From an uncultured Faecalibacterium sp. (GTDB lineage Bacteria; Bacillota; Clostridia; Oscillospirales; Ruminococcaceae), in the NCBI GenBank assembly GCA_934540955.1, contig CAKTCY010000053.1:1-15096 (forward strand): 15,096 bases of DNA, in the 5' to 3' direction. Below the pieces are notes generated by a model. The model ran no database searches. It saw nothing but the letters and a program-made list of their open reading frames with translations, and was not told the DNA's origin. Both the position numbers and the translations under genes were made by a program. Numbering within the stretch: the first letter of the stretch is position 1; the number at the start of each line of letters is the position of its first letter. Positions 940 to 14,895 of the stretch are shown piece by piece.

Positions 940-943
940 GACC

Positions 944-2236: not shown

Positions 2237-2273
2237 GAGCGGGACGATTTGACGATTTAGAATGCGCTCCGCG

Positions 2274-2388
2274 TTTTACGGGTTGCGGCACCCAGCATCC
2301 GCTTCGTGCCTTGGGCGGCACTCGCGTCTTGCTGGCCGCTGCCCCAACAACTCCTCCCTGTTTCCGCCGCTGGCGGCGGTCGTCGTCG
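2274..2388. repeat. Extra 115-bp block inside repeat copy A
   Basis: Copies C and D run directly from GCTCCGCG into TTGCTCTGCGCAT, whereas copy A has about 115 bp at that join. The block is GC-rich and has imperfect inverted ends (GTTGCGGCACCCAGCA near 2283 against TGCTGGCCGCTGCCCCAAC ending near 2348) plus a CCGCC/GGCGG hairpin near 2365-2378. It looks like a second small element inserted in the first, or a module lost from the other copies. Confidence 0.55.
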
Positions 2389-2427
2389 TTGCTGCGCATA
2401 AATAGCGGAAAAAAGATTTATAATTTC

Positions 2428-2463
2428 GGAATAGCGGAGCGCCTGCGGGCGCTCCGCTATTCC
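2428..2463 (+). other. Covarying hairpin H1 of repeat copy A
   Basis: The arm GGAATAGCGGAGCGCC pairs perfectly with GGCGCTCCGCTATTCC around a TGCG loop. The equivalent hairpins in the other copies (7243-7276, 11827-11860, 14001-14034) keep the TGCG loop and the pairing but differ in stem sequence. Confidence 0.8.
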
Positions 2464-2600
2464 ATTTTCACGGGGTGGGGTCGTAGCGGGAAAGGGCAGC
2501 TGCCGCGCCGCTTTCTGCGAAAGCGCGGCGCTGCGGGCGTGCGCTTGCTCCCCCGGGGGAGCTGTCGCGCAGCGACTGAGGGGCTATAAACGGAGAAGCG

Positions 2601-2649
2601 AAAAAAGCGTTAAAGCGATAGCGCCGACTGGCGCAGCGCTAGCTTTTTT
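2601..2649. terminator. Two-way terminator-like hairpin, repeat copy A
   Basis: AAAAAAGC at the left pairs with GCTTTTTT at the right, and GCGCC/GGCGC closes a GACT loop inside, so either strand reads as a GC stem followed by a T-run. It is the first plausible terminator downstream of the 4Fe-4S gene. Confidence 0.6.
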
Positions 2650-2839
2650 GTGCTTCGACTTCCTTTTTAGGATCGTCAAGGGCGAGCAGCCCTTGACCTG
2701 TTGCGGGGTGGGTGGAGTCCAGAGGTAGGGAGGGGGGAGTCGGAACACCCCTCCCTGCCTCTGGCCCAGCGGAGCGTCCATGCCCGCTTGCGGCAAGCAA
2801 AAGCTTTCCCCGCGCAGCGGAGCACATTCCAAATCGTCC

Positions 2840-3022
2840 TCCCTCCCCGGTTCCCCGCTTTTTGGGCAAGACGCCCAAAACGGCGGGAAATATTTCTCTT
2901 GCCCTGCGTGAATGGGGGTTGTTTTGCATCGAATCGCGCTTGCAGGGCGCGGGCGGCGTCTGCTATACTTATGGTATGGAAGAAAGCAACGCCACGCTAC
3001 AACAAAGAACGGAGGTAGATTT
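2840..3022 (+). repeat. Lipoprotein leader segment, first copy
   Basis: This stretch is closely similar to 14100-14282, and both lead into the twin lipoprotein genes. Each copy has a hairpin of the form CCCGC..TTTTGGGC-AAGAC-GCCCAAAA..GCGGG (here about 2857-2890), a shared TTGTTTTGCATCGAATCGC stretch, the promoter and the GGAGG ribosome site. The leader and the gene were duplicated together. Confidence 0.8.
2940..2969 (+). promoter_or_regulatory. Lipoprotein promoter, first copy
   Basis: TTGCAG (2940-2945) lies 18 bp before TATACT (2964-2969), with TG one base before the -10 hexamer (extended -10). GGAGG at 3011-3015 sits 7 bases before the ATG at 3023. Confidence 0.7.
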
Positions 3023-3556
3023 ATGAAAAAGCTGGCAAGACTGACCGCCCTTTTGCTCACCGGTGCACTGCTGCTGGTGCTGACCGCCTGCGGGGCTGCG
3101 CCGGGCGGCGGCCCTAACATGACCCCCGAGGAAATTGCGGCAAAGCAGCGGCTGCTGGAGGAGATCAACAGCTACCGCAAAAGCATCCATCTTGAGCCAC
3201 TGGTGGAAGTAGAACAGCTCTCTGATGCCGAGCAGGTTTATATAACGCCGTTCCGCGACGCCAACACTACCGTGCTGCCAGAGCGCGAAACGTATAAAGC
3301 CTGGAATGACTGGGCAGGCAAGACTATTGACTGGACGCCATGTGATGATTTCGGCTTGAATGAGACGATCGTAGATGACGAATCTGTCATCCTTCTGACT
3401 GCCATGGTTCCCCCCAACACCCCGAAGGGCAATGCGGATCTGCAGGCAGCCTTGAGAAGCTCTGGTAAATTTGATCATGACAATTGCAATAGCATCGGCA
3501 TTGCCGTTGTGACTATCAAGGGACAGATGTACTGGAGTTGCTGCACGTTCAGGTAG
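3023..3556 (+). CDS. Small lipoprotein, possible CAP/SCP-like domain (paralog 1)
   Basis: The 177-residue product opens with a lipoprotein signal peptide: MKKLARL, a hydrophobic stretch, then lipobox LTAC with the lipidated Cys near residue 23. It should be exported and anchored on the outer face of the membrane. The remainder, with INSYRKSIHLEPL near residues 49-61 and SIGIAVVTIKGQMYWSCCTF at the end, resembles the first helix and last strands of CAP/SCP-type domains. The central CAP motifs are not obvious, so the call is tentative. Three Cys positions outside the lipobox (PCDD, DNCN, SCC) recur in the paralog at 14283-14798. The signal peptide and C-terminus are nearly identical between the two, while the middle has diverged. 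It has its own promoter and two downstream hairpins, so it is a single-gene unit. The function is unknown. Confidence 0.85.
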   Translation: MKKLARLTALLLTGALLLVLTACGAAPGGGPNMTPEEIAAKQRLLEEINSYRKSIHLEPLVEVEQLSDAEQVYITPFRDANTTVLPERETYKAWNDWAGKTIDWTPCDDFGLNETIVDDESVILLTAMVPPNTPKGNADLQAALRSSGKFDHDNCNSIGIAVVTIKGQMYWSCCTFR

Positions 3557-3600
3557 AACGCTTCTCCTTCCCGGTAAGCCTAACAGGATACTGTAATAAG

Positions 3601-3632
3601 AATGCCGGAGCATCCGCAGATGCTCCGGCATT
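3601..3632 (+). terminator. Terminator of the first lipoprotein gene
   Basis: A perfect 14-bp stem (AATGCCGGAGCATC with its complement) closes a CGCA loop 44 bp after the stop. A modest T-rich stretch, TTGCATTTTC, overlaps its end. Confidence 0.75.
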
Positions 3633-3653
3633 GCATTTTCATGGGAGTTCACC

Positions 3654-3688
3654 AAAAAACCGGGCAGCCTGCGGGCTGTCCGGTTTTG
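3654..3688 (-). terminator. Terminator of the ABC exporter operon
   Basis: Read on the minus strand, CCGGACAGCC pairs with GGCTGCCCGG across a short loop and is followed by TTTTTT, 7 bp past the cydC-like stop. The plus-strand version ends in TTTT, so it may work both ways. Confidence 0.8.
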
Positions 3689-3695
3689 TATTTGT

Positions 3696-5369
3696 TCAGC
3701 TTACTCTTCCGCTCTCTACCGAGAAGCTCACATCCGCCGCAGCCATGGTGGACTTGCGGTGGGATACCAGCAGCACCGTGCGGTCCTTGCACTCGGCGCG
3801 GACGGCGCGCAGGATGATGCCCTCGTTCAGGCTGTCAAGGTTGGAGGTGGGCTCGTCCAGCAGCAAAAAGGGCGCATCGTGCAAAAACGCCCGCGCCACG
3901 CCGATGCGCTGCCGCTCACCGCCGGAAAGGGTGCCGCCCAGCTCGCCCACAGGGGTATCGTAGCCCTTGGGCAGGCTGCGGATAAAGTCATCCAACGCGG
4001 CCTTTTTGCAGGCGTCCTCCACCTCTTCCTGCGTGGCATCCCGCTTTGCGATGCGGATGTTGTTGCCGATGGTATCCGCAAACAGCTCGGTCTCCTGCGT
4101 CACAAGGCTCTCCTGCGCCCGCAGGGCGGCGGTGTTCACCCGCCGGATGTCCGCATCCCCGAACCGGATGCTGCCGGTCTGCACGTCCCAGAAGCGCATC
4201 AGCAGCCGCAGCAGGGTGCTTTTGCCGCTGCCGGAGCGCCCGGTGATGCCCACGATCTTTTTTTCCGGGATGGTCAGGCTGATCTCCCGCAGCACCTGCT
4301 CCCCTGCGTAGCCAAAGCTGACATTGCGCACCTCTGCACCCGCAAAGGGGGTATTTTCGCCGTCGGTCACCTCGGGGGTCACCGGTGCTTCGTCCAGCAG
4401 CGCCAGCACGCGGTCTGCGCTGGCAAATACCTGCGTCAGCCCTGCGCCAAGGTTCGCCAGCGCCACCACCGGCCCAAAGGAGCTCAGGGCGGTCAGGGTG
4501 CACACCAGCACCCCCTGCGCCGCCAGTGCGCCGCGCTGGTAGAGCCACAGGCTCACGCCCAGCACCGCCAGTGTGGTGAACAGGATCAGGGTGTTGGTCA
4601 CGGCCACGATCAGCCCCTCGCGGTACTTCAGCGCCGTCTGCTTTGCGCCCAGCGCCTCGCTGTGGGCGGTGATGCCCGCTGCCCGGGCGGCAGTGTCCTG
4701 ATACTGCAGGGTGTCCCGCAGGCCGCGCAGGCTTTCCAGCACATAGCTGTTGGTATCCGCCAGCGCCTGCCGGTATTCCCGGGCAACGGCCTGTCCGCGC
4801 TTTGCGCTCCACACCGGCAGCGCCGCACCCACCAGCAGGTAGCCCACCAGCAGCGCCAGCGCGGGCAGGATGTGCCAGTGCGCCACAAAAGCGGTCATCC
4901 CCGCCGCCCAGAGCACGGCGATGCACACCGGCGAGATGGTGTGGGCGTAGAACACCTCCAGCGCCTCGATGTCGGCGGTGATGAGGGAGATCAAATCGCC
5001 CCGGTCGCGACCCTCCAGCTTTGCGGGGGTCAGGCGGCGCAGCGCGCCGAACACCTTATCCCGGATGAGCGCCAGCAGCCGGAAGGCGATATAGTGGTTG
5101 GAGGCCTGCTCCGCGTAGCGCAGCACGCCGCGCAGCAGGGCGAACACCAGAATGCACCCGAAGGCCGTGCCCACGGTGGGCAGCGGACCCTGCAGCCCGG
5201 CAGCGGTCAGGATGGCAAAGCCGCCGAAAATGGTGATGAAGGTGGCGCAGAAATGCCCCGCCACGCCCATAACGATGGCTGCCAGCATGATGGGCAGCAT
5301 GGGCTTTACCAGCACGATCAGCCGCGCCACAATGGCGGCGGGCGTGCGATGGTTCGTTGTTTTATGCAT
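3696..5369 (-). CDS. CydC-like ABC exporter subunit (permease-ATPase fusion)
   Basis: The 557-residue protein has a membrane domain of about six helices (residues 15-310) and then a nucleotide-binding domain. The latter shows Walker A GRSGSGKST (377-385), a Q-loop with VTQETELF (about 423-430), signature LSGGERQR (481-488), Walker B FLLLDEPTSNLD (501-512) and an H-loop SHR (536-538), all intact. The segment LRYAEQASNHYIAFRLLALI resembles the CydC signature. CydDC heterodimers are known for exporting thiols (cysteine, glutathione) and have been linked to haem handling in cytochrome bd assembly. No cytochrome bd genes are in this window, so the substrate is open. Its ATG shares one base with the stop of the preceding subunit gene, which points to translational coupling and a 1:1 heterodimer. 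Confidence 0.85.
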   Translation of the reverse strand: MHKTTNHRTPAAIVARLIVLVKPMLPIMLAAIVMGVAGHFCATFITIFGGFAILTAAGLQGPLPTVGTAFGCILVFALLRGVLRYAEQASNHYIAFRLLALIRDKVFGALRRLTPAKLEGRDRGDLISLITADIEALEVFYAHTISPVCIAVLWAAGMTAFVAHWHILPALALLVGYLLVGAALPVWSAKRGQAVAREYRQALADTNSYVLESLRGLRDTLQYQDTAARAAGITAHSEALGAKQTALKYREGLIVAVTNTLILFTTLAVLGVSLWLYQRGALAAQGVLVCTLTALSSFGPVVALANLGAGLTQVFASADRVLALLDEAPVTPEVTDGENTPFAGAEVRNVSFGYAGEQVLREISLTIPEKKIVGITGRSGSGKSTLLRLLMRFWDVQTGSIRFGDADIRRVNTAALRAQESLVTQETELFADTIGNNIRIAKRDATQEEVEDACKKAALDDFIRSLPKGYDTPVGELGGTLSGGERQRIGVARAFLHDAPFLLLDEPTSNLDSLNEGIILRAVRAECKDRTVLLVSHRKSTMAAADVSFSVESGRVS

Positions 5370-7099
5370 CAGGCATCCTCCTTTGCAAGGGTCTCCAGCT
5401 GCTTCTGGGCGGTGTACAGGCGGCAGTAAGCGCCCCCCTGCGCCAGCAGCTGCGGGTGGGTGCCCTGCTCGGTAATGCTGCCGTTTTCCAGCACATAGAT
5501 GCAGTCGCTGTCCACTACGTTTGCCAGCCGGTGGGAGATCAAAATCACGGTCTTTTTCCCCGCCAGACCCCGGATGGCCGCCATGATGTCGTTTTCGCTC
5601 TCGGCGTCCACGTTGGAGGTAGCTTCATCGAAGAGATAGATGGGGGTATCATGTAGCAAAGCGCGCGCCATGGCAAGGCGCTGCCGCTGCCCGCCGGAAA
5701 GGTTGCTGCCGCCCTCGTGCACGGCGGTCTGCAGGCCGTTCTGGCTGCGGCAGAAGTCCGCAAGGTTCACCTCTTCCAGCGCCGCCCAGAGCTCGCTCTC
5801 CGCCGCCTGCGGCTTTGCCATGCGCAGGTTGTTTTCCACCGTGCCTTTGAAAATAGTGGAATCATGCGGCACGACCGTCAGCGTGCGCTGCCGTGCAGCC
5901 CGCTGCAGCTGCTGTACCGGCACGCCGCCCATGGTCACCCGGCCGGTATACCCGGTGCAGCGTCCCGCCAGCAGGGCGGCAATGGTGCTTTTGCCGCTGC
6001 CGGAAGCGCCCACCAGCGAGACAAAGCTGCCCTGCGGCACGGTAAAGGAAACGTCCCGCAGCACGGTGCGGCCTGCCTCGTAGCCAAAGGTCACCTTTTC
6101 CAGCGCCAGCGTGGTGTCCGCCGGAGCGTTCTGCACGCTGTCCTGCGGCTCCTCTGCGGCCAGCAGACGGAAAATTTTCTCCGCCGAAGCCGCGCCGTTC
6201 ATGGCAATGTGGAAGTAGCTGCCCAGCAGCCGCAGCGGCAGAAAAAAGTCTGCTGCCAGCAGCAAAATCGTCAGGGTGGCGGTCAGCTCCAGCTGCCCCG
6301 CTGCAAAGGCTGCCACGGCGCTGATGATGCCCAGCCCCGCGCCGCCGTAGGCCATCAGGTCCATCAGGGTGACCGAGTTCAGCTGCATGGTCAGCACCCG
6401 CATGGTGATCTTGCGGAAGCGCTCGGCTTCGGCGTTCATCTGCGCGTGCTTCCAGCCGTCGGCCTGATAAATTTTCAGGGTGGTCAGCCCCTGAATGTTC
6501 TCCAGAAAGCTGTCGCCCAGCGTGGTGTACTCGCTCCAATAGCTGGCCAGCAGCTTTTTGGCAAACTTCTGCACCGCCACGATGGACATGGGGATCAGCG
6601 GCACGCAGCACAGCAGAATGACCGCCGACCGCGCGTGCACCCCCACCAGCAGCGCAAACAGGGTGACGGGTGCCAGCAGGCTGTAAAACAGCTGCGGCAG
6701 ATATTTTGCAAAGTAGGTGTCGATCTGCTCCACGCCCTCGCTGGCCAGCATGACCACCTCGCTGGTAGCCACCGTGCCGGTATAGCCGGGGCCAAGGCGG
6801 GTGAGTTTTTCATAAATTTTGCTGCGCAGGGTGCGCTTGACATCCCGCGAAGCCTGATCGCTCATGCCGGAGGCCAGCATGGTAAAGGCAAAGCGCAGCG
6901 GCACCGTGCCAAGGCAGAGCAGGATATTCTGCCGCAGCGCGGCAGCGGTCAGGCTGCCCGCAAAGGCCGCCCCCACCAGCCGGGCGACCGCCCGGACAAA
7001 GATGATATTACACATCAGCCCCAGCCACTGGAACGCCACGTTTGCTCCCACATACCGCAGCGCCGCCCTGTCGAAGGACAGCAGTTTTTTGTTTATCAT
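5369..7099 (-). CDS. CydD-like ABC exporter subunit (permease-ATPase fusion)
   Basis: The chosen start is ATG at 7099, with AAGGAG a few bases upstream, giving 576 residues; an in-frame extension upstream would read through repeat copy B. The membrane domain includes EGVEQIDTYFAKYLPQ (about 121-136), a hallmark of CydD-type subunits. The ATPase domain has Walker A GASGSGKST (364-372), signature LSGGQRQR (467-474), Walker B IYLFDEATSNVD (487-498) and H-loop SHR. The usual Q-loop Gln is a His (VVPHDSTIF, about 409-417). That may be normal in Firmicute CydD-like proteins, or may mark an asymmetric ATP site. It is the first gene of the pair. Only 42 bp separate its ATG from repeat copy B and I see no promoter there, so transcription must start within the repeat or upstream, perhaps at the dtxR-like gene. 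Confidence 0.85.
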   Translation of the reverse strand: MINKKLLSFDRAALRYVGANVAFQWLGLMCNIIFVRAVARLVGAAFAGSLTAAALRQNILLCLGTVPLRFAFTMLASGMSDQASRDVKRTLRSKIYEKLTRLGPGYTGTVATSEVVMLASEGVEQIDTYFAKYLPQLFYSLLAPVTLFALLVGVHARSAVILLCCVPLIPMSIVAVQKFAKKLLASYWSEYTTLGDSFLENIQGLTTLKIYQADGWKHAQMNAEAERFRKITMRVLTMQLNSVTLMDLMAYGGAGLGIISAVAAFAAGQLELTATLTILLLAADFFLPLRLLGSYFHIAMNGAASAEKIFRLLAAEEPQDSVQNAPADTTLALEKVTFGYEAGRTVLRDVSFTVPQGSFVSLVGASGSGKSTIAALLAGRCTGYTGRVTMGGVPVQQLQRAARQRTLTVVPHDSTIFKGTVENNLRMAKPQAAESELWAALEEVNLADFCRSQNGLQTAVHEGGSNLSGGQRQRLAMARALLHDTPIYLFDEATSNVDAESENDIMAAIRGLAGKKTVILISHRLANVVDSDCIYVLENGSITEQGTHPQLLAQGGAYCRLYTAQKQLETLAKEDA

Positions 7100-7141
7100 G
7101 GGTGTTTCTCCTTTTTGGTCTTGTCTGCCCCGCCGGGCAGT

Positions 7142-7653
7142 GGGACGATTTTGAATGCGCTCCGCTGCGCAGGGGGTGGGACGATTTAAAATGTGCTCCG
7201 CTGCGCTCTGCACATATTCAGCGGAAAGATTATTTTTATTTCGCGTTTGTCGCGCTCTGCGGAGCGCTCCAAACGCTATTTTCACGAGAGGGGTCGTAAA
7301 GGGAAATGGCAGACGCAGCGCAGCTTTCTGCGAAAGCATGGCGCTGCGGGCGGGCGCTTGCTCCCCCTCGGGGGAGCTGTCGCGCAGCGACTGAGGGGCT
7401 TTAAATGGAGAAGCGAAAAAAGCGTTAAAGCGATAGCGCCGACTGGCGCAGCGCTAGCTTTTTTGTGCTTCGACTTCTTCTTTAGGTTTGTCAAGGGCGA
7501 GCAGCCCTTGACCCGTTGCGGGGTGGGTGGAGTCCAGAGGTAGGGAGGGGGGACTCGGAACACCCCTCCCTGCCTCTGGCCCAGCGGAGCGTCCTTGCCC
7601 GTTTGCGGCAAGCAAAAACTTTCCCCGCGTGGCAGTGCATTTCAAATCGTCCC
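7142..7653 (+). repeat. Mosaic noncoding repeat, copy B
   Basis: It is in the same orientation as copy A. The left terminus is doubled: GGGACGATT with GAATGCGCTCCGC at 7142, and GGGACGATTT with AAATGTGCTCCGC at 7178. The right terminus is the inverted AAATCGTCCC at 7644-7653. The hairpins correspond to those of copy A: H1 at 7243-7276, the terminator-like one at 7416-7464 and the 17-bp one at 7534-7579. It fills the whole gap between the cydD-like and dtxR-like genes, and its right end forms the last codons of the dtxR-like gene. No protein-coding gene is supported inside it. Confidence 0.9.
7416..7464. terminator. Two-way terminator-like hairpin, repeat copy B
   Basis: This is the same 49-bp hairpin as in copy A (A6-GC ... 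GC-T6). It lies between the dtxR-like gene and the exporter genes on their shared strand, so it could cut read-through from one to the other. Confidence 0.6.
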
Positions 7654-8043
7654 GCCTGCGGCGCAAGTCTCTTCCCCTTCCACCATCCGCTCATAGTCGG
7701 CGGTGAAAAGGCGCTGGGGCAAGGCGCTGGTCATGGCAAGGGCGGCGTTCCACTGCTCCTCTTTTGTCAGCTCCCCGCTCACCGGCGGGAAGTGCGCCAG
7801 AATGGCGTCCAGCTCCTGCTGCACCCGCTTTGCCACCCAGATGCCGCGGTCGGTCAGGTAAATTTTGCCGTAATATTCCTTTACGATCATGCCCTGCTCC
7901 ATGAGCAGGTTCAGAATGCGCACCACCGAGGGCTTTGTCACCCCCAGCTTTTCCGCAATGCTGCGGGAGCTGATGTCCAGATGGGTGCGGCTTACCTCGT
8001 AGATGGCCAGCAGATAGCGCAGATGCGCTGCGGTCAGCTGCAT
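7642..8043 (-). CDS. DtxR/MntR-like metal-responsive repressor
   Basis: The start chosen is ATG at 8043, with AAGGAG about 10 bases upstream, giving 133 residues; a longer in-frame start at 8091 lacks a ribosome site. Residues 5-70 form a winged helix of DtxR type (SSRSIAEKLGVTKPSVVRILNLL, then the wing EYYGKIYLTDRG). The C-terminal part is short for the family, and by eye the His/Glu metal ligands of MntR and DtxR do not line up: QQELD replaces a His-Glu pair and there is no E-x2-E-H. Its own promoter carries the 16-bp box found at feo and DUF3793, so it is the likely regulator of that set and of itself. The last four codons and stop (GGTI-stop) are provided by repeat copy B, so the original C-terminus may have been replaced. 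Confidence 0.8.
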   Translation of the reverse strand: MQLTAAHLRYLLAIYEVSRTHLDISSRSIAEKLGVTKPSVVRILNLLMEQGMIVKEYYGKIYLTDRGIWVAKRVQQELDAILAHFPPVSGELTKEEQWNAALAMTSALPQRLFTADYERMVEGEETCAAGGTI

Positions 8044-8083
8044 ACCGGTCACTCTCCTTTTTACGCGCCGGGGCTTGCCCGGT

Positions 8084-8099
8084 GTTATCATAAGCTAAC
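8084..8099. promoter_or_regulatory. Operator box at the dtxR-like gene
   Basis: On the minus strand this reads GTTAGCTTATGATAAC, matching GTTAG-N6-CTAAC with one mismatch. It overlaps a probable -10 (TATGAT) of the dtxR-like gene, so self-repression is likely. Confidence 0.6.
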
Positions 8100-8111
8100 T
8101 TTATTTTGCTT

Positions 8112-8148
8112 AAAAAAGAGCGCGAGCCGAGAGTTTCAGCCCGCGCTC
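8112..8148 (-). terminator. Terminator of the feo operon
   Basis: On the minus strand GAGCGCGGGC pairs with GCTCGCGCTC (one G-T wobble) around an 11-base loop and is followed by TTTTTT. It begins 14 bp after the stop of the Cys-rich protein gene. Confidence 0.9.
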
Positions 8149-8162
8149 CTTGCGGTTACTTT

Positions 8163-8351
8163 TTATTGCTTTACGGTGCTGTGTGCACAGCCGCCGCAGC
8201 AGCTGCAGTTGCCGGAGCAGCCGCAGTCACAGCAGCTGCCGCCCCGCTTGAGGGTTTTCCAGATCGAGCGTCCGTCCAGCACCAGCAGGAGCAGGACGAT
8301 GCCCACTACCACGATATTTACCAAATTTGCCATCAACCATGCGGTCATCAT
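8163..8351 (-). CDS. FeoB-associated Cys-rich membrane protein
   Basis: The 62-residue protein (ATG at 8351 or 8348, AAGGAG just upstream) has one membrane helix (about residues 8-26), a basic stretch (DGRSIWKTLKRG), and a tail with nine Cys in CC-x-C-x-C-x3-C-x-CC-x2-C spacing. This matches the small Cys-rich proteins often encoded after feoB in Firmicutes and presumed to help ferrous iron uptake, perhaps by passing or sensing iron at the membrane. It is the last gene of the feo operon, followed directly by the terminator. The family assignment is firm; the exact role is not established. Confidence 0.9.
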   Translation of the reverse strand: MMTAWLMANLVNIVVVGIVLLLLVLDGRSIWKTLKRGGSCCDCGCSGNCSCCGGCAHSTVKQ

Positions 8352-8373
8352 ACGCCACTCCTTTTTGTTTGAT

Positions 8374-8481
8374 TCAGTGTCGGAAGAACCCCATCACCAC
8401 GCGCACGGCGACTACGGCAAGCACTGCCAGCACCGCCAGCACGATGATATCGGTGGTTCCGAGGGTAAGATTTGTGGTCAT
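8374..8481 (-). CDS. Small 35-residue membrane peptide in the feo operon
   Basis: This short frame runs from ATG at 8481 to TGA at 8374-8376 and encodes MTTNLTLGTTDIIVLAVLAV, continuing LAVVAVRVVMGFFRH. It is one hydrophobic helix with a short basic end. It starts 6 bp after the feoB stop, with GAAGG about 12 bases upstream inside the feoB end, and stops 22 bp before the Cys-rich gene. The tight spacing, same strand and clean membrane helix support a real gene, possibly a FeoB partner. Its N-terminal layout resembles the Cys-rich protein without the Cys tail. I do not know a named family for it. Confidence 0.6.
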   Translation of the reverse strand: MTTNLTLGTTDIIVLAVLAVLAVVAVRVVMGFFRH

Positions 8482-8487
8482 AAGGTG

Positions 8488-10662
8488 TTACGCCTTCTGT
8501 CCGACGCTGCGGCCGGCCTCGCGCTCATCCTGTGCGCGCTTTGCGTTCTGATCCGGGCGGAACAGAGCGTACAGGTAGCCCACCAGGACGATGACGGCAA
8601 CCACGGTGAAGGCGTTGAAGGCAACCTCGCCGGTGATCAGACCGCCCAGCTGGTAGACCATCAGAGCCACCAGCCATGCCTGAATGTTCTGGTACAGCAG
8701 AGCGTAGGCCAGCTTCTTGCCGCCGCCGATCTCACGGGCCATCGTGGAGATAGCTGCAAGGCAGGGGGAGTCGAAGCAGTTGAACACCATGAAGGACACG
8801 GCTGCAATGCTGGAGGGGAAGAACTGTGCAAAGGCAGCGTGCATATCGGTGAGGTACTCCTCCACCTCGCCCAGACCGGCCAGAACACCCATGGTGCTCA
8901 CGATGCCTTCCTTTGCCACAAAGCCGGACAGAGAGGAGGCAACGGCCTGCCAGGTGCCAAAGCCCAGAGGAGCAAAGATGGGAGCCAGAACGCCGCCGAT
9001 GACGGCAAGCAAGCTGTCCTCAGTTTCCACAAGGCCGAACACACCATCTGCAATGCCGAAGTTTGCAAGGAACCACATGACAGCGCAGCACAGGAACAGG
9101 ATGGTACCGGCCTTCTTCAGGAAGGCCCACACGCGCTCCCACACATGGAGCAGAACGCCCTTGGCAGAGGGGATATGGTAAGCGGGCAGCTCCATAACGA
9201 AGGGAGCGGGGTCGCCTGCAAAGGCCTTGCTCTTTTTCATGATGATGCAGGAGATGACCACCAGTGCAATGCCTGCAAAGTACATCACAGGTGCCATCCA
9301 CCATGCACCGCCCAGCAGGAAGCCTGCGATCAGGGCGATGACCGGCAGCTTTGCGCCGCAGGGGATCAGGGTGGTGGTGATCATGGTCATGCGGCGGTCC
9401 TTCTCGTTCTCGATGGTACGGGTGGCCATGATGCCGGGCACGCCGCAGCCGGAGGAGATGAGGAAGGGGATAAAGCTCTTACCGGACAGACCAAAGCGGC
9501 GGAACAGACGGTCCATGATAAAGGCAACACGGGCCATGTAGCCGCAGTCCTCCAGAATGGACAGGAAGAAGAACACGATAGCCATCTGCGGGGCAAAGCC
9601 GATGGGCGCTGCCAGACCGCCGATGATGCCGTCCACTACCAGCGAGACGACCCAGTCTGCTGCACCGGCGTTTTCCAGCAGGGTCTGCACGCCGGGCTGG
9701 ATCCATGTGCCGAACAGGGTGTCGTTGGTCCAGTCGGTCACGATGCCGCCCAGACTGGAAACGGCGATGTAATACACCACGCACATGATCACTGCAAAGA
9801 TGGGCAGTGCCAGCACGCGGTTGGTGACGATCTGGTCGATCTTATCGGAGACGGTCAGGTTGTCCTTGCGGGCCTTCTTCTTGACTGCCTTGTGCACCAC
9901 GGTGTTGATGTAGGCGTAGCGCTGGTTGGTGATGATGCTCTCGGCGTCATCGTCCATCTCCTTTTCGCAGTCCTGAATGTGCTCGTCGATGTGGTCCACC
10001 AGTGCCTTGTCCAGCTTCAGCTCCTCCAGCACCTTCTCGTCCCGCTCGAACAGCTTGACGGCGTACCAGCGCAGGAAGCGGGGCTCCACCTTGCCCTGAA
10101 TGCTCTCCTCGATGTGGGCAATGGCGTGCTCCACACTGCCGGTGAACACATGGGGCAGCTCGCCGGTCTTGGCGGCCTTGGCGGCGGCGACTGCAGCCTT
10201 TGCGGCCTCCGCAGTGCCCTCGCCCTTCAGTGCGCTGATCTCCACTGCCTGACAGCCCAACTCTGCGCTCAGCTTCTTCAGGTCGATGGTATCGCCATTC
10301 TTGCGCACCAGATCGATCATGTTCACAGCCATGACCACCGGAATGCCCAGCTCGATCAGCTGGGTGGTCAGATACAGGTTACGCTCGATGTTGGTGCCGT
10401 CGATGATGTTCAGGATGGCGTCGGGCTTCTCCTTCACAAGGTAGTTACGGGAGACGACCTCCTCCAGCGTGTAGGGGGACAGCGAGTAGATGCCGGGCAG
10501 ATCCTGAATGATCACGTCCTTGTCGCCCTTGAGTTTGCCTTCCTTTTTTTCCACAGTAACGCCGGGCCAGTTGCCCACATACTGGTTGGAGCCGGTCAGG
10601 TTGTTGAACAGGGTCGTTTTGCCGCAGTTCGGGTTGCCGGCCAGTGCAATTTTAATGCTCAT
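8488..10662 (-). CDS. feoB: Ferrous iron transporter FeoB
   Basis: The 724-residue protein imports Fe(II) across the cytoplasmic membrane. The N-terminal G domain has G1 GNPNCGKT (9-16), G2 with T36 in WPGVT, G3 DLPG (54-57), G4 NMID (114-117) and G5 SAL (143-145), all intact. A helical regulatory domain follows (about 165-270), then a membrane domain with the two gate motifs GCGVPGIMATR (405-415) and PCGAKLPV (434-441), whose Cys are thought to line the iron path. The length is typical. It lies 29 bp after feoA, with AGGAGG-like sequence before the ATG, and is followed closely by two small membrane proteins. Control by the box-bearing promoter at 11252-11280 is likely. Confidence 0.97.
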   Translation of the reverse strand: MSIKIALAGNPNCGKTTLFNNLTGSNQYVGNWPGVTVEKKEGKLKGDKDVIIQDLPGIYSLSPYTLEEVVSRNYLVKEKPDAILNIIDGTNIERNLYLTTQLIELGIPVVMAVNMIDLVRKNGDTIDLKKLSAELGCQAVEISALKGEGTAEAAKAAVAAAKAAKTGELPHVFTGSVEHAIAHIEESIQGKVEPRFLRWYAVKLFERDEKVLEELKLDKALVDHIDEHIQDCEKEMDDDAESIITNQRYAYINTVVHKAVKKKARKDNLTVSDKIDQIVTNRVLALPIFAVIMCVVYYIAVSSLGGIVTDWTNDTLFGTWIQPGVQTLLENAGAADWVVSLVVDGIIGGLAAPIGFAPQMAIVFFFLSILEDCGYMARVAFIMDRLFRRFGLSGKSFIPFLISSGCGVPGIMATRTIENEKDRRMTMITTTLIPCGAKLPVIALIAGFLLGGAWWMAPVMYFAGIALVVISCIIMKKSKAFAGDPAPFVMELPAYHIPSAKGVLLHVWERVWAFLKKAGTILFLCCAVMWFLANFGIADGVFGLVETEDSLLAVIGGVLAPIFAPLGFGTWQAVASSLSGFVAKEGIVSTMGVLAGLGEVEEYLTDMHAAFAQFFPSSIAAVSFMVFNCFDSPCLAAISTMAREIGGGKKLAYALLYQNIQAWLVALMVYQLGGLITGEVAFNAFTVVAVIVLVGYLYALFRPDQNAKRAQDEREAGRSVGQKA

Positions 10663-10691
10663 TGCGGATACCTTTCCTCCCTTTGGTCTTA

Positions 10692-10913
10692 TCAGACCAC
10701 TTCGATCATCTCAGCGTCGGCCTTGCGCACGCTCAGCTCGTAGTTGCGCACGGTCAGCTCCATGGGGTCGCCCAGCGGCGCCACCTTGCGCACATAGATC
10801 TGCACACCCTTGGTGATGCCCATATCCATGATGCGGCGCTTCACCGGGCCTTCGCCGTGCAGCCGTGCCACGGTGGCGGTCTCGCCCACCTTTACGTCCT
10901 TCAGTGTTTTCAT
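10692..10913 (-). CDS. feoA: FeoA protein (second in operon)
   Basis: The 73-residue SH3-like protein has the FeoA pattern: LKDVKVGETATVARL, then RRIMDMGITKGVQI, then PMELTVRNYELSVRKADAEMI. FeoA is a small cytoplasmic partner that acts on FeoB. It has GGGAGG 10 bases before the ATG and lies between another feoA and feoB, with 29 bp to feoB. Its sequence differs clearly from the first FeoA, so the two are old paralogs with probably distinct roles, not a recent duplication. Confidence 0.93.
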   Translation of the reverse strand: MKTLKDVKVGETATVARLHGEGPVKRRIMDMGITKGVQIYVRKVAPLGDPMELTVRNYELSVRKADAEMIEVV

Positions 10914-10964
10914 CGTACTCGTTCCTCCCTTGCGTTATTTCATGCAGCACCGGGAAGGCGCTGC

Positions 10965-11180
10965 TCAGGCCACCATAATGCGGCTTGCCATGGTCTTATC
11001 CAGTGCCAGCCGGCTCTGCTTGACCTGTACAATCAGGTTGCCCGCGATCTCGTTGACCACGGTCACCTCGCTGCCCACCACGAACCCCAGCTCGGCCAGA
11101 TGCAGCCGCACCTCGTCCTTGCCGCTGATCTTGCGGATGGTGACGGTCTCGCCTGCTTTTGTCATCGTCAAAGGCATCAT
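10965..11180 (-). CDS. feoA: FeoA protein (first in operon)
   Basis: The 71-residue protein has the FeoA/SH3 pattern (AGETVTIRKISG, RLHLAELGFVVGSEVTVV, NLIVQVKQSRLALDKTMASRIMV). The start at 11180 has GGGGAG 7 bases upstream; the next Met codon (11177) is also possible. It is the first gene after the iron-box promoter, 51 bp before the second feoA. Paired FeoA proteins ahead of FeoB are common in clostridia. Confidence 0.93.
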   Translation of the reverse strand: MMPLTMTKAGETVTIRKISGKDEVRLHLAELGFVVGSEVTVVNEIAGNLIVQVKQSRLALDKTMASRIMVA

Positions 11181-11222
11181 CGCTGTGCTCCCCTTCCATA
11201 GAAATTATGTGATGTTGCGGTG

Positions 11223-11238
11223 GTTAGTCAGCCGTAAC
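11223..11238. promoter_or_regulatory. Operator box 1, feo promoter
   Basis: GTTAGTCAGCCGTAAC matches GTTAG-N6-CTAAC at nine of ten defined positions. It lies just downstream of the feo start site and is exactly 30 bp, about three helical turns, from the next box. Confidence 0.65.
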
Positions 11239-11251
11239 TATCAGCGTAGAC

Positions 11252-11280
11252 AGTTTACCTCTGCTAACCCAGCTTGTCAA
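11252..11280 (-). promoter_or_regulatory. feo operon promoter
   Basis: On the minus strand a perfect TTGACA (11280-11275) lies 17 bp before TAAACT (11257-11252), about 70 bp before the first feoA. It is a strong housekeeping-type promoter, so control is probably by repression. Confidence 0.85.
11253..11268. promoter_or_regulatory. Operator box 2, feo promoter
   Basis: GTTTACCTCTGCTAAC matches GTTAG-N6-CTAAC at eight of ten positions (GTTTA for GTTAG) and covers the -10 region and part of the spacer. A repressor bound here would block RNA polymerase. Confidence 0.65.
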
Positions 11281-11300
11281 TAGATTTTTCATATCTCATA

Positions 11301-11316
11301 GTTAGTTTATATGAAC
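11301..11316. promoter_or_regulatory. Operator-like box 3, upstream of feo
   Basis: GTTAGTTTATATGAAC has a full left half and a weaker right half of the same 16-bp box, about 20 bp upstream of the -35. Confidence 0.45.
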
Positions 11317-11381
11317 AAACAAATTTTATGCCGGCATCGCCCCGCATTTTTATCAAAATCATCAATGACTAACTCTATTTT

Positions 11382-11410
11382 TTGATTTAAAGTTAGCCAA
11401 TGTTTACATT
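11382..11410 (+). promoter_or_regulatory. Possible divergent promoter with box 4
   Basis: TTGATT (11382-11387) lies 17 bp before TACATT (11405-11410) on the plus strand, with a box GTTAGCCAATGTTTAC (11392-11407) over the spacer and -10. No gene follows; repeat copy C begins about 35 bp on. It may be a relic of a lost divergent gene. Confidence 0.35.
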
Positions 11411-11443
11411 TTTAGGGGGTGTTTTGCGATTTTATAGGGCAGA

Positions 11444-11925
11444 GTGACGATGGAAACTCCCCCAGTCATCGCTGCGGGAGTACCTTTCTGCTTGCCGCAA
11501 GCGTGCAGGGACGCTCCGCTGGGCCAGAGGCAGGGAGGGGTGTTCCGACTCCCCCCTCCCTACCTCTGGACTCCACCCACCCCGCAACGGGCCAAGGGCT
11601 GCTCGCCCTTGACAATCCTAAAGAAGAAGTCGAAGCACAAAAAAGCTAGCGCTGCGCCAGTCGGCGCTATCGCTTTAACGCTTTTTTCGCTTCTCCATCT
11701 ATAGCCCCTCAGTCGCTGCGCGACAGCTCCCCCAAGGGGGAGCGAGCACCCGCCCGCAGTGCCGCGCTTTCGCAGAAAGCGGCGCTGCACCTGCCGCTTC
11801 CCTCCACGACCCCTCCCGTGAAAATAGCGTTTGGAGCGGCCCGCAGGCCGCGACAAACGCGAAATAAAAATAATCTTTCCGCTGAATATGCGCAGAGCAA
11901 CGCGGAGCGCATTCCCAATCGTCCC
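11444..11925 (-). repeat. Mosaic noncoding repeat, copy C (inverted)
   Basis: It is inverted relative to copies A and B. The plus-strand right end, AATCGTCCC (to 11925), is the reference left terminus. The other end near 11444 is diverged, with only TGACGAT recognisable. It keeps H1 (11827-11860), the GCTCCCCC/GGGGGAGC hairpin, the terminator-like hairpin (11639-11687), the CAAGGGC/GCCCTTG hairpin and the 17-bp hairpin (11524-11569). It accounts for most of the 889-bp stretch between feoA and the DUF3793 gene; short frames within it are explained by the repeat. Confidence 0.9.
11639..11687. terminator. Two-way terminator-like hairpin, repeat copy C
   Basis: This is the same A6-GC ... GC-T6 hairpin as in the other copies. 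It could end transcripts coming from the DUF3793 gene on the minus strand. Confidence 0.55.
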
Positions 11926-11937
11926 ATCCAAACGCAC

Positions 11938-11976
11938 GACCGCCCGGCGCAGGGGTCAAGGCTGCACCGGGCGGTC
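11938..11976. other. 10-bp stem-loop downstream of the DUF3793 gene
   Basis: GACCGCCCGG (11938-11947) and CCGGGCGGTC (11967-11976) form a perfect 10-bp stem with a 19-base loop, just outside repeat copy C. There is no T-run, so it may be a transcript-end stabiliser rather than a terminator. A weaker CTCTCCT/AGGAGAG hairpin lies at 11999-12025. I see no gene in 11926-12069. Confidence 0.5.
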
Positions 11977-12069
11977 ATGTGTAAAAAGGAGGATCGCTCT
12001 CTCCTGTGTCGGATGCATAGGAGAGTTGCCAGGATAAAAGAGAGTATTTGAAAAGAGAATAGCAATTTT

Positions 12070-12657
12070 TCAGGCGGCCACCGCCAGCTTTAAAATGGGC
12101 GTGCCGCTGTGGAACAGCCGCAGATACACCGCCGTGCACTTGGCCAGCTGGTCAAAGTGCTGCTGCGCGGCGGTCGGGTCGCCGTAGGACTTCCAGCAGC
12201 CGCAGCAGGTAAAGCACTTGCCCCGGTGCCGGATAAAGCCCACGACATCCTCCAGCGGATAACCCAGAAATACCCCGATCTCATGGGGGAAATCCGCTGC
12301 CTCTGCCGCGCAGCACAGACGCAGGCTGAGCTGGTCGAGCAAGGCACCGCAGTCTGCCGCATCCTCCGGCAGACGGTAGCCCTCCCGGGCTAAAAAGCCG
12401 CGCACGGCGGCATCTGCCAGCACGGCCTGCAGCTTGGCGGCGCGGTAGACGTACACCAGATACTGCCGGGTGGCAATGCACCCCCGCAGCACCCGCACCT
12501 GTAAGCCCTTGGGGTTCAGCTGGGCATTCCAGCCCGCCACCCGCCGGGCAAGGTCGGCACGGTCGCGCGTTTCGTAGCGGAACAGCCCCGCAGGCTTCAG
12601 CCCCGCCAGTACCGGGGCACATTGTTCGATCATTACGGTCTCAAAATCACGCTCCAT
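12070..12657 (-). CDS. DUF3793 family protein
   Basis: The 195-residue protein starts at ATG 12657 with AAGGAG upstream. The motif EIGVFLGYPLEDVVGFI (about 126-142), followed by GKCFTCCGCWKSYGD (about 146-160), is typical of DUF3793. There is no signal peptide or membrane segment, so it is probably cytoplasmic. Clustered Cys (residues about 149-154) and others at 113-114 could bind metal. The biochemical function of the family is unknown; its members are often found near iron-uptake or flavodoxin genes. Here the promoter has the best copy of the box also found at feo and the dtxR-like gene, which supports control by iron. It is a single-gene unit, separated from feo by repeat copy C. Confidence 0.85.
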   Translation of the reverse strand: MERDFETVMIEQCAPVLAGLKPAGLFRYETRDRADLARRVAGWNAQLNPKGLQVRVLRGCIATRQYLVYVYRAAKLQAVLADAAVRGFLAREGYRLPEDAADCGALLDQLSLRLCCAAEAADFPHEIGVFLGYPLEDVVGFIRHRGKCFTCCGCWKSYGDPTAAQQHFDQLAKCTAVYLRLFHSGTPILKLAVAA

Positions 12658-12729
12658 GGCGGTTCTCCTTTGGCGACGGTCAGGCGGCGGTGTCGGGGTC
12701 AGTGTGCCCCGGAGGCCGGGCTGTTATAA

Positions 12730-12745
12730 GTAAGACGCAGCTAAC
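12730..12745. promoter_or_regulatory. Second operator-like box in the DUF3793 leader
   Basis: GTAAGACGCAGCTAAC differs from GTTAG-N6-CTAAC at one defined position. It lies 73 bp upstream of the DUF3793 start, beyond the leader hairpin. Confidence 0.45.
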
Positions 12746-12754
12746 CAGCACCTC

Positions 12755-12790
12755 AAAAAAGAAGCAGCACACCCGGTCTGCGGGCACTGC
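12755..12790 (-). terminator. Terminator-like hairpin in the DUF3793 leader
   Basis: On the minus strand, GCAGTGCCCG pairs imperfectly with CGGGTGTGCTGC (two wobbles and a bulge) and is followed by TTCTTTTTT. It lies between the promoter and the gene, where it could attenuate transcription. Confidence 0.4.
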
Positions 12791-12807
12791 CGGTGGGGTC
12801 TCATGTA

Positions 12808-12823
12808 GTTAGTTGTTTCTAAC
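12808..12823. promoter_or_regulatory. Operator box at the DUF3793 promoter
   Basis: GTTAGTTGTTTCTAAC is a perfect inverted repeat (GTTAG-N6-CTAAC), the best copy in the window. It begins about 6 bp downstream of the -10, over the expected start of transcription. Confidence 0.7.
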
Positions 12824-12829
12824 GCCAGT

Positions 12830-12859
12830 AGTGTACCACAACGCAGTGGGGCGTGTCAA
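12830..12859 (-). promoter_or_regulatory. DUF3793 promoter
   Basis: On the minus strand TTGACA (12859-12854) lies 18 bp before TACACT (12835-12830), with TG one base before the -10. This leaves a leader of about 165 bases. Confidence 0.8.
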
Positions 12860-12926
12860 GCCTTTATGGCAAAAAAGTTATTTACAGCAAACCACGCTCG
12901 CGCTACCCTTCCGGCGGCGGTCGTGG

Positions 12927-12932
12927 TATAAT
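12927..12932 (+). promoter_or_regulatory. Kinase gene promoter (-10)
   Basis: This is a perfect TATAAT with TG one base upstream (GTGGTATAAT). No good -35 is seen at the right distance, so it is probably an extended -10 promoter. A perfect AAGGAGGT (12973-12980) lies 6 bases before the kinase ATG. Confidence 0.7.
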
Positions 12933-12986
12933 GGGGGTATTCTCGGGTCTGCCCCTTGGGGCGCACCCTGCCAAGGAGGTTCCCCC

Positions 12987-13586
12987 ATGCCCACACCCAT
13001 CACCATGCCCACCCTGTCTGCACTGCTTAGCGCCGCGCTGGCGCAAAAGCCCACCCGCCTGCTGGTGCTGGCGCTGGACGGCCGCTGCGGCAGCGGCAAG
13101 ACCACCCTTGCCAACGCGCTGGCGGCGCAGTTTCCCGGCTGCACCCTGCTGCGCACGGACGATTTCTACCTTCCGCCCGCGCAGCGCAGCCCGGACTGGG
13201 CGCACACCCCCTGCGCCAACATGGACCTTGCCCGCCTGCGGGACGAGGCCCTGCGCCCGGCCTACGCGGGGCAGACAGTGGCCTACCGGGCGTACAACTG
13301 CCGGGAGGGGGCTTATCTGCCCCCGGCACAGCTGCCCGCGCAGCCGCTGGTGATTTTAGAGGGCAGTTACAGCCACCATCCGTTGCTGCGCCCCTACGAG
13401 ACGCTGCGGGTGTTCGTGACCTGCACCAAGGCCGAGCAGACCCGGCGCTTACAGGCGCGGGAGGGCACCCGCTACGCGGATTTTGCCGCCCGGTGGATTC
13501 CGCTGGAGGAGGGGTATTTTGCGCAATACGGCGTTGCCGAAGGCGCAGATTTTGTGGTGGAGACCACCGGGAGCGGGACGATTTAG
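12987..13586 (+). CDS. Uridine-kinase-like P-loop protein
   Basis: The 199-residue protein starts at ATG 12987, set by a full AAGGAGGT ribosome site. Walker A is GRCGSGKT (32-39); TDDFYLPP (57-64) matches the Asp-containing strand of uridine kinase-type nucleoside kinases; VILEGSYSHHP (122-132) fits the Walker-B-like region; and ARWIPLEEGYF (168-178) follows the expected Arg-rich lid. It probably transfers phosphate from ATP to a small nucleoside-like substrate in the cytoplasm; the true substrate is uncertain. The last codons and stop, GGG-ACG-ATT-TAG, are the terminus of repeat copy D, so the protein ends ..TTGSGTI and its native end may be lost. It is divergent from the DUF3793 gene. Confidence 0.8.
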   Translation: MPTPITMPTLSALLSAALAQKPTRLLVLALDGRCGSGKTTLANALAAQFPGCTLLRTDDFYLPPAQRSPDWAHTPCANMDLARLRDEALRPAYAGQTVAYRAYNCREGAYLPPAQLPAQPLVILEGSYSHHPLLRPYETLRVFVTCTKAEQTRRLQAREGTRYADFAARWIPLEEGYFAQYGVAEGADFVVETTGSGTI

Positions 13587-13764
13587 AATGCATCGCGCTC
13601 CGCGGGGAAAGTTTTGCTTGCCGCAAGCGTGCAGGGACGCTCCGCTAGGCCAGAGGTAGGGAGGGGTGTTCCGAGTCCCCCCTCCCTACCTCTGGACTCC
13701 ACCCACCCCGCAACGGGCCAAGGGCTACACGCCCTTGACAATCCTAAAGAAGAAGTCGAAGCAC

Positions 13765-13813
13765 AAAAAAGCTAGCGCTGCGCCAGTCGGCGCTAGCGCT
13801 TTAACGCTTTTTT
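13765..13813. terminator. Two-way terminator-like hairpin, repeat copy D
   Basis: This is the same 49-bp hairpin. An A-G mismatch in the stem of copies A-C is a C-G pair here, lengthening the inner helix. It is the probable terminator of the kinase gene. Confidence 0.65.
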
Positions 13814-13870
13814 CGCTTCTCCATCTATAGCCCCTCAGTCGCTACGCGACAGCTCCCCCGAGGGGGAGCG

Positions 13871-13983
13871 GATACGCCCGGAAACTTTGCGGGTTAGTCT
13901 GAAACTTTCCCGCCATGCCAAAGGCTCCCTCCTTGAGGGAGCTGGCAAAGCCGTCAGGCTTTGACTGAGGGAGTTCGTTCCAA
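13871..13983. repeat. Replacement block in copy D with a second hairpin repeat
   Basis: The core at 13920-13974 has GGCTCCCTC/GAGGGAGC and AAAGCC-GTCA-GGCTTT hairpins and ends GACTGAGGGAG. It is a distant relative of the CCCCTCAGTC..GGGGGAGC unit at 13831-13870 in the same copy but faces the opposite way, so the two form a large inverted pair. The direct repeat GAAACTTT occurs twice (13881 and 13901). Confidence 0.65.
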
Positions 13984-14099
13984 ACCCCTCCCGTGAAAAT
14001 GCGTTTGGAGCGCTCCGCAGAGCGCGACAAACGCGAAATTAAAAATAATTTTCCGCTGATTATGCGCAGAGCAACGCGGAGCGCATTCTAAATCCTCCC

Positions 14100-14282
14100 C
14101 TCCCAGGTTTCCCGCTGTTTTGGGCAAGACGTCCAAAACGGCGGGAAATATTTCTCTCCCCCCCTGCGTGAATTGGGGTTGTTTTGCATCGAATCGCACT
14201 TGCGGGGGGGGTAGCATCTGTTAAACTTATGGTATAGAAGAAAGCAGCACCACACTACAACAAGGAACGGAGGTAGACCCTT
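14100..14282 (+). repeat. Lipoprotein leader segment, second copy
   Basis: This is a close copy of 2840-3022, with the hairpin CCCGCTGTTTTGGGC/GTCCAAAACGGCGGG (about 14110-14144) in which a G-T wobble keeps the pairing. The promoter and the ribosome site GGAGG (14269-14273) follow. Confidence 0.8.
14200..14227 (+). promoter_or_regulatory. Lipoprotein promoter, second copy
   Basis: TTGCGG (14200-14205) lies 16 bp before TAAACT (14222-14227), with TG one base before the -10. The spacer carries a G-run and is 2 bp shorter than at the first copy. Confidence 0.6.
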
Positions 14283-14798: not shown

Positions 14799-14839
14799 TT
14801 TCCCCTTTCCCGCATAGAACAAAACCCCTTGAACAGAAC

Positions 14840-14875
14840 AAAGCCGGACAGCTTGCGGGCTGTCCGGCTTTTGGT
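14840..14875. terminator. Two-way terminator between the lipoprotein and rfbB-like genes
   Basis: A 13-bp stem, AAAGCCGGACAGC with its complement, closes a 6-base loop and is followed by TTTTGG and TTTTG on the plus strand. It resembles the hairpin at 3654-3688, which sits at the equivalent place after the first lipoprotein. Confidence 0.8.
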
Positions 14876-14895
14876 TTTGCTTGGTTTACAGACTG

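Follow-up and report, generated by a model that had tools for sequence, protein, structure and literature searches.

An interspersed mosaic repeat family of Faecalibacterium, probably built on a structured, terminator-bearing module

Results

The locus and its four repeat copies

The window analysed here is a whole 15,096-nt stretch of DNA (contig CAKTCY010000053.1, positions 1 to 15,096) from an uncultured Faecalibacterium sp., which contains four copies, c1 to c4, of a large, hairpin-rich noncoding element; the nearest genome to it, G001, shares 35% of its sampled 31-mers. An earlier note, made from the sequence alone, had placed the copies at 2241-2839, 7142-7653, 11444-11925 and 13575-14099 and in both orientations, and these coordinates are correct, with c1 and c2 on the plus strand and c3 and c4 on the minus strand. 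Each copy consists of one module T and a noncoding R block, in the module order T (P and K parts), D, E, F, H, I, where T begins at the GACGATTT terminus and I closes with an inverted terminus. The parts are as follows.

2241..2839, plus: composite c1 (T with a 117-bp insert, then R)
2249..2507, plus: T module of c1, interrupted by a 117-bp insert (covariance model R1 match, 124.3 bits)
2278..2394, plus: 117-bp unit U, inserted at a GTTGC site within the first T hairpin, 100% identical to the unit in another G001 element (L097 1564-1680)
2550..2824, plus: R block of c1 (D-E-F-H-I hairpins), 94% identical to 7365-7639 as an ungapped pair
7142..7653, plus: composite c2, whose right terminus gives the stop codon of a helix-turn-helix (HTH) gene, 7642-8091, minus
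7142..7177, plus: extra shortened terminus with which c2 opens, before its T module (repeat comparison within the window)
7178..7320, plus: T module of c2 (R1 match, 137.6 bits)
7365..7639, plus: R block of c2, with a terminator-like stem flagged at 7443-7457
11444..11925, minus: composite c3, missing from the orthologous site of genome G007
11470..11744, minus: R block of c3, an ungapped pair with 13596-13870 at 94% identity
11783..11925, minus: T module of c3 (R1 match, 138.9 bits)
13575..14099, minus: composite c4, whose R end gives the stop codon of a kinase-like gene ending at 13586, plus
13596..13870, minus: R block of c4
13957..14099, minus: T module of c4 (R1 match, 118.6 bits)

The inverted arms 7174-7618 and 11485-11929 are 92% identical, and c2 folds far below shuffled sequence on both strands (z of -9.6 and -9.3). 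The earlier note's termini common to all copies are present at seven of the eight ends (GGGACGATTTNNAATGC-like), the exception being the left end of c3 (11444, GTGACGATGGAAAC), where the AATGC half is missing. Inverted GACGATTTNNAATG-like ends bound c1, c2 and c4, as they do T-T pairs, and c3 has one such end only. Its ordered set of hairpins likewise needs one correction: the modules are collinear, but c4 has a different hairpin block in place of the GCTTTCTGCGAAAGC hairpin of c1 to c3.

T is a conserved folded module whose stems covary

T is ~145 nt long and consists of ACGATTTNN, a 6-bp stem (stem 1, ATGsns/snsCAT), GCGGA, an AT-rich linker, a near-perfect 16-bp stem (stem 3) closed mostly by a TGCG loop and followed by a T-run, and a conserved tail (ATTTTCACGGGAGGGGTCGTAA). 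In alignment A2, which comprises 49 T copies of G001, the module starts with ACGATTT, two free bases and AATG; the inner three pairs of stem 1 are in most rows CGC/GCG, GCT/AGC, GCC/GGC, CCC/GGG, TGC/GCA or GTC/GAC; TCCGC lies in the loop of stem 1, with GCGGA directly behind the stem; and the 16-bp stem is followed by ATTTT, CTTTT or TTTTT, the stem and T-run of an intrinsic terminator.

The stems of T keep their complementarity while their sequence changes. Among the 49 copies, 93.8% of cells were paired against 75.1% in shuffles, and the covariation score was 0.507 against 0.160, a value matched in 0 of 500 shuffles and by none of the slid partners (at most 0.117). Stem 1 was paired in 99.3% of cells, with both sides changed in four of its six pairs, and in stem 3 both sides had changed in 15 of 16 pairs, the G001 stems exceeding shuffled and slid controls on four of five covariation measures. 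A set of 35 matches from 25 other loci, in an alignment fitted to the model in which a few rows hold the palindromic stem from the other strand of the listed match, gave 97.8% pairing and a score of 0.726 against 0.177. Over 104 of 107 rows, some copies being counted twice, 1604 Watson-Crick and 11 G-U pairs occupied the 1664 positions of stem 3, and its 56 distinct arms included recombined upper and lower halves, one upper half occurring with eight lower halves.

No Rfam identity could be credited to the repeat: none of 4227 covariance models matched the window at gathering score, and at E<=5 every match within 7100-7700 fell under its family cut-off, 27 of the 29 being microRNA precursor families that lay mostly at the long hairpin near 7534-7579. 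Behind the first lipoprotein-like gene of the window, at 3601-3632, a hairpin corresponds to stem 3 of the T model (26.6 bits), with no first hairpin accompanying it.

Modular composition of the family

Module searches covered 619 kb of G001 DNA, a sample biased towards copies, and returned 77 P, 45 D, 30 K, 30 H, 29 E, 28 F, 23 I and 10 U in 88 clusters. The order P-K-D-E-F-H-I was retained, with truncations, in the 30 clusters that bear H, seven of which also contain an inverted D, K or P, or a U. A lone P unit made up 28 of the 88 clusters, and inverted P-P pairs were present as well; T thus occurs alone, as an inverted T-T pair or joined to an R block. R is noncoding, as the earlier note had it: all six frames are interrupted in 25 of 25 G001 copies (240 nt), and the overlapping open reading frames (ORFs) of 60-109 aa were judged spurious. 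Identity of these 25 copies to c2 ranges from 82.2 to 95.5%, with inner stretches that vary by 1-2%, and substitution rates by position modulo 3 appear uneven (0.083, 0.042 and 0.056).

Unit U, which is bounded by GTTGC, is found in different modules (within T or next to it, or between F and H), is missing from the orthologous element of genome G037 and in G036 (L211) lies without a nearby T match; it looks like a separate small repeat. Termini with a doubled start, e.g. GACGATTT GACGATTT, occur in the window at 2241-2258 and 7142-7187 and in G001 at 2870478 and 3181624; they may be traces of loss followed by re-insertion. Another hairpin repeat family, of AACCCTCTCAG...CTGAGAGGGTT and CTCCCTC...GAGGGAG...ACTGAGGGAG types, was seen at L189 16743-16909 and in the window at 13925-13975; in G001 it directly follows a stop codon, and G007 has ~13 bp of different sequence at that place.

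The family is dispersed within a subset of one genus

The earlier note had made its reading depend on copies beyond this locus, and the terminus and T proved to be dispersed throughout G001 and the other carriers. Within the genome collection, 33 stretches contain exact matches to the core hairpin, and every one is titled Faecalibacterium; the c2 element gave 66 BLAST pieces against G001. The 20-base terminus occurs in G001 55 times at up to two mismatches and 85 times at up to three, the reversed-pattern control giving 0 in both cases. At up to two mismatches it was found in 11 of 31 Faecalibacterium genomes (G007, 60; G004, 59; G001, 55; G037, 40; G043, 27; G042, 19; G036, 16; G011, 8; G017, G038 and G008, 1 each) and in none of the other 20, with a control count of 0.

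Covariance model R1 of T, for which the best 102 candidates per genome were scored, matched 13 of the 31 genomes and none of the remaining 18. Eight of them held from 80 to at least 102 matches (at least 101-102 each in G001, G004, G036, G037, G007 and G043, 92 in G042 and 80 in G011), and G033, G008, G038, G017 and G002 held one to three each. In an evenly spaced 400-kb sample of G001, 19 matches were found; since eight of these exceeded 85 bits, G001 should contain roughly 65 strong T copies in addition to weaker ones. Among 119 genomes from the bacterial family, in a search that was more strictly filtered and limited to 26 scored candidates in each genome, so that weak matches may be lost, matches occurred in G001 and one other genome (single and marginal, E 9.5e-4). 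T is thus largely confined to a subset of one genus, Faecalibacterium.

None of 72,556 plasmid records matched the repeat. Of 50,697 phage records, 11 did (MT838228.1 and 10 others), none covering 80% of the query; these are 4-8 kb contigs from faeces, unannotated and labelled 'Bacteriophage sp.', that contain pieces of the repeat and that we read as probable chromosomal DNA. A plasmid and a phage origin were both rejected.

Orthologous sites differ in their interiors

Comparison of filled and empty sites between strains, also proposed in the earlier note, revealed full and empty alleles together with alleles of different interior, and strains often differ through replacement of the interior, not through clean gain or loss. 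At the c2 site G007 has an inverted T-T pair between the same flanks, and G004 lacks the element along with some native DNA. The c3 site is empty in G007 and holds other mosaics in G004 and G001, while in the window AAAC stands on either side of c3. The c1 site contains T in G001 and G004 and another repeat in G007; at the c4 site of G011, what resembles a bare terminus stub is by the model a decayed T (39 bits).

Away from the window, site 2 (L189 14152-14764) has T+R in G001, T-T with the same outer ends in G007 and an unrelated hairpin block in G004, and in G037 it is empty, the 613-bp composite being cleanly absent with no bases left over (L197). Site 1 has T-T in G001 and G004 and two different plain hairpins in G007 and G037. 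Site 5 has a full T in G037, a stem without recognisable first hairpin in G007 and nothing in G001. Site 4 has T in G001, and the alleles of G037 and G007 are read as a stem without recognisable first hairpin despite a weak full-length model match (49 bits). T also stands alone in G007 where G001 carries T+R, and opposite a T-T pair of G011 a terminus stub of ~17 nt is retained in G001.

Of 17 T pairs that were aligned, nine were counted as orthologous; the rows dropped (L160 twice, L163, L164, L166, L171, L173 and L152) had one or no flank supported, had unclear T correspondence or repeated the L158 locus, whose own orthology consists of one flank and a continuous match. Stem 3 was identical in six of the nine and changed on both arms in three (L159/G007, L149 and L144), L159/G007 keeping its left flank and first hairpin beside an unrelated stem. 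Stem 1 was identical in seven and changed on both arms in two (L148 and L172), including a G-C to C-G swap. No arm had changed alone in any of the nine pairs.

Position relative to genes

A same-strand stop codon lay within -12 to +75 nt of 19 of the 49 T copies, compared with 680 of 20000 random positions (3.4%), and outside ORFs the figures were 19 of 36 against 680 of 5003 (13.6%). Flanking genes were convergent at 20 of 38 resolvable T copies, compared with 671 of 3349 random intergenic positions (20%). At c2 and c4 the terminus itself provides the stop codon of the neighbouring gene. Based on the position of T, the stem with its T-run and the second terminator-like stem in R, the most likely host-side effect of T, as judged from sequence, would be transcription termination.

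Other features of the window

Among the window proteins, Pfam matched 4Fe-4S, HTH, FeoB, DUF3793, AAA (kinase-like) and two ABC-transporter proteins, and neither of two paralogous lipoprotein-like proteins. The paralogous genes, at 3023-3556 and 14283-14798, presumably encode lipoproteins, and the gene at 37-939 we take to encode trigger factor. The lipoprotein-like paralogues have upstream DNA in common, from a point near the element ends onward (2839-3556 and 14099-14798), the ends that they adjoin being of opposite orientation, the R end at c1 and the T end at c4. No tRNA or tmRNA was found in a search of the window.

Discussion

We consider it probable, at roughly 60%, that the four copies belong to a Faecalibacterium-specific interspersed mosaic repeat family whose basic unit is T, a ~145-nt structured, terminator-bearing 3'-end module. 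T would end the mRNA of the upstream gene by an intrinsic terminator assisted by its 5' hairpin and perhaps a pseudoknot. Recombination or gene conversion among dispersed copies may introduce new interiors and stems, and the conserved flanks GACGATTT...CAGCGGAA and ATTTTCACGGGAGGGG could supply the homology for it; hairpin-templated repair is an alternative route by which a stem block might be replaced. Some enzyme acting on the GACGATTTNNAATG ends may have brought about the first spread of the family, and R could be a younger or more constrained passenger.

A more specific form of this proposal, which we put forward tentatively, is that T is a clade-limited structured element whose stems are exchangeable cassettes. 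Both arms would be replaced together at fixed sites whose flanks are ~95% identical, the new stems and half-stems being drawn from a common pool through ectopic conversion or an enzyme acting on single-stranded DNA. Replacement of a stem as a block is suggested because both arms change together, including from G-C to C-G, with few G-U steps.

Several observations weigh against these proposals. At the decayed L166/G033 locus, a dropped row with one-flank orthology, stem 3 has one-arm changes that give a mismatch and a G-U pair; the arms are therefore not always changed together, which lowered the probability that we assign to exchangeable cassettes. Further pair types were not in excess in the G001 alignment (48 against 47.2 in shuffles, 224 of 500). 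Pairing of the TCCGC loop with GCGGA had 0 of 5 pairs changed on both sides, and the pseudoknot is kept as a possibility, at the level of a guess; the end pairing ACGA/TCGT was present in 79.7% of cells and is mostly conserved sequence. Stop-codon placement applied to 39% of the 49 T copies, of which, by crude gene calls, 13 lay in a spurious or real ORF, 11 were classed as 'other' and six were near an antisense gene. When 7000-7800 was scanned with a terminator consensus, the R stem at 7443-7457 was flagged and stem 3 of c2 was missed, with three sites in all against 1.8 expected. Finally, gene conversion between T copies is a conjecture from sequence comparison.

The earlier note had proposed a non-autonomous mobile element, and in part the evidence agrees, the family being noncoding, dispersed, variably present and in part bounded by inverted ends. 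A plain non-autonomous transposon is nevertheless unsupported, because the terminus is the 5' part of a unit that stands alone, often without an inverted partner, and because target duplication is not consistent and interiors are replaced between strains. A transposon resembling a miniature inverted-repeat transposable element (MITE) seems to us doubtful. Under this reading a transposase encoded at another location would move T-T and T-R composites with inverted ends of ~15-24 bp (GGGACGATTTNNAATGC...), lone T would represent decayed copies, and the short stubs of the terminus would be what excision left behind. The reading would account for the clean absence of the 613-bp composite from G037 (L197), the absence of c3 from G007 at a site where AAAC flanks c3 in the window, the site with the same ends and different interiors in G001 and G007, the ~17-nt stub opposite the G011 pair, and the doubled termini (c1, c2, G001 2870478 and 3181624). 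However, target duplication is not consistently found: there is none at the 613-bp site, c3 has AAAC on both sides, and at several other sites native DNA has been replaced. The T copies, moreover, are diverged with a conserved, covarying structure and are not recent and near-identical. Nor was the transposase with matching termini that the earlier note suggested found among the inward terminus pairs of G001. Nine such pairs lie within 3 kb; eight span 260-563 bp, and in the ninth, of 2774 bp, a candidate location for the transposase, a Na/Pi symporter gene was found instead and no recombinase was recognised, other ORFs in it not having been searched.

A functional cis-acting RNA that does not move, i.e. 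a terminator or 3'-UTR regulator whose spread followed that of its genes, would be consistent with the placement of T behind stop codons, with its strict structure and with the retention of several orthologous T loci between strains (L146, L158, L169, L170 and L172). To this explanation we give little credence in view of the presence and absence of elements beside fixed gene neighbours that are ~92-97% identical (sites 1, 2, 5, c2 and c3), and of the limitation of T largely to a subset of one genus. It is very improbable that the repeats form a REP/BIME (repetitive extragenic palindrome/bacterial interspersed mosaic element) system moved by an IS200-type Y1 transposase (RAYT), despite the hairpins, more than 50 copies, 3'-end location, inverted pairs and BIME-like mosaic composites, which recall such systems as described in the accessible part of PMC3733652, and despite 17 Y1 matches in 11 of the 31 genus genomes. 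No Y1 match was found in the carriers G007 (at least 102 T matches) and G042 (92), G013, G039, G015, G010 and G034 have a Y1 match and no T match, and T was present at one of nine Y1 loci scanned. At that locus, L217 1335-2095 of G001, an IS200-like Y1 element lies 3 bp from T, and near-identical copies at L216, L218 and L220 are without T. An IS200/RAYT enzyme is thus unlikely as the spreader of T, the link being rejected on the distribution of Y1 and T matches.

The nearest kinds of repeat to the T family are BOX, SPRITE and REP/BIME. According to the accessible part of PMC3049150, BOX of Streptococcus pneumoniae (boxA-boxB-boxC) is modular, 67-637 bp long and present in more than 100 copies; like the T family it varies in size, would be structured if transcribed and has MITE-like features, but target duplications are reported for BOX and not consistently found here, and T has a terminator-like stem, the likeness being one of description. 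SPRITE of the same species, as far as that part of the source goes, shares with T an interspersed distribution, a long terminator-like duplex (18 bp), a U-rich tract and a target duplication that is not established; it is AT-rich and simple, in contrast to the second covarying hairpin, conserved tail and mosaic composites of T. REP/BIME elements of the GTAG and CGTC super-families, as portrayed in the accessible part of PMC3733652, resemble T as high-copy palindromes that form inverted dimers and lie behind genes, whether the neighbouring genes are convergent or unidirectional, the CGTC type having no dedicated transposase. REP are palindromes of 20-40 bp with an unpaired GTAG or CGTC tag, in the CGTC type with 8-9-bp stems and 4-5-nt loops, whereas T is ~145 nt long with a 6-bp first stem, a ~14-nt loop and GACG several bases from the stem, and no link was found between it and a RAYT transposase such as is associated with the GTAG type. 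MITEs are, like the T family, short, noncoding and dispersed, with inverted ends and empty sites, but T has no consistent target duplication, and no partner transposase was found in the G001 inward pairs.

The accessible part of a 2018 comparison of F. prausnitzii genomes (PMC6295017) describes classical transposons and insertion sequences as lacking and synteny as strikingly low; compared with its statement on insertion sequences, IS200-like Y1 genes do occur in Faecalibacterium genomes. Our literature search, whose coverage excluded most subscription journals, returned no paper on this repeat or its stem swapping, and PMC7771070, in its accessible part, proved unrelated. Interspersed mosaic repeats are already known; the T family, its structure and the swapping of its stems were not found in print.

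The T family offers an extensive natural collection of terminator-like stems that evolve mostly by concerted change of both arms, with very few G-U steps. If our proposals are correct, 3' ends in Faecalibacterium would generally evolve by the swapping of stop signals, and the T copies would be a source of homology behind the poor conservation of gene order in this genus. Tens to a hundred recombining structured copies per genome are a candidate source of intergenic turnover and rearrangement.

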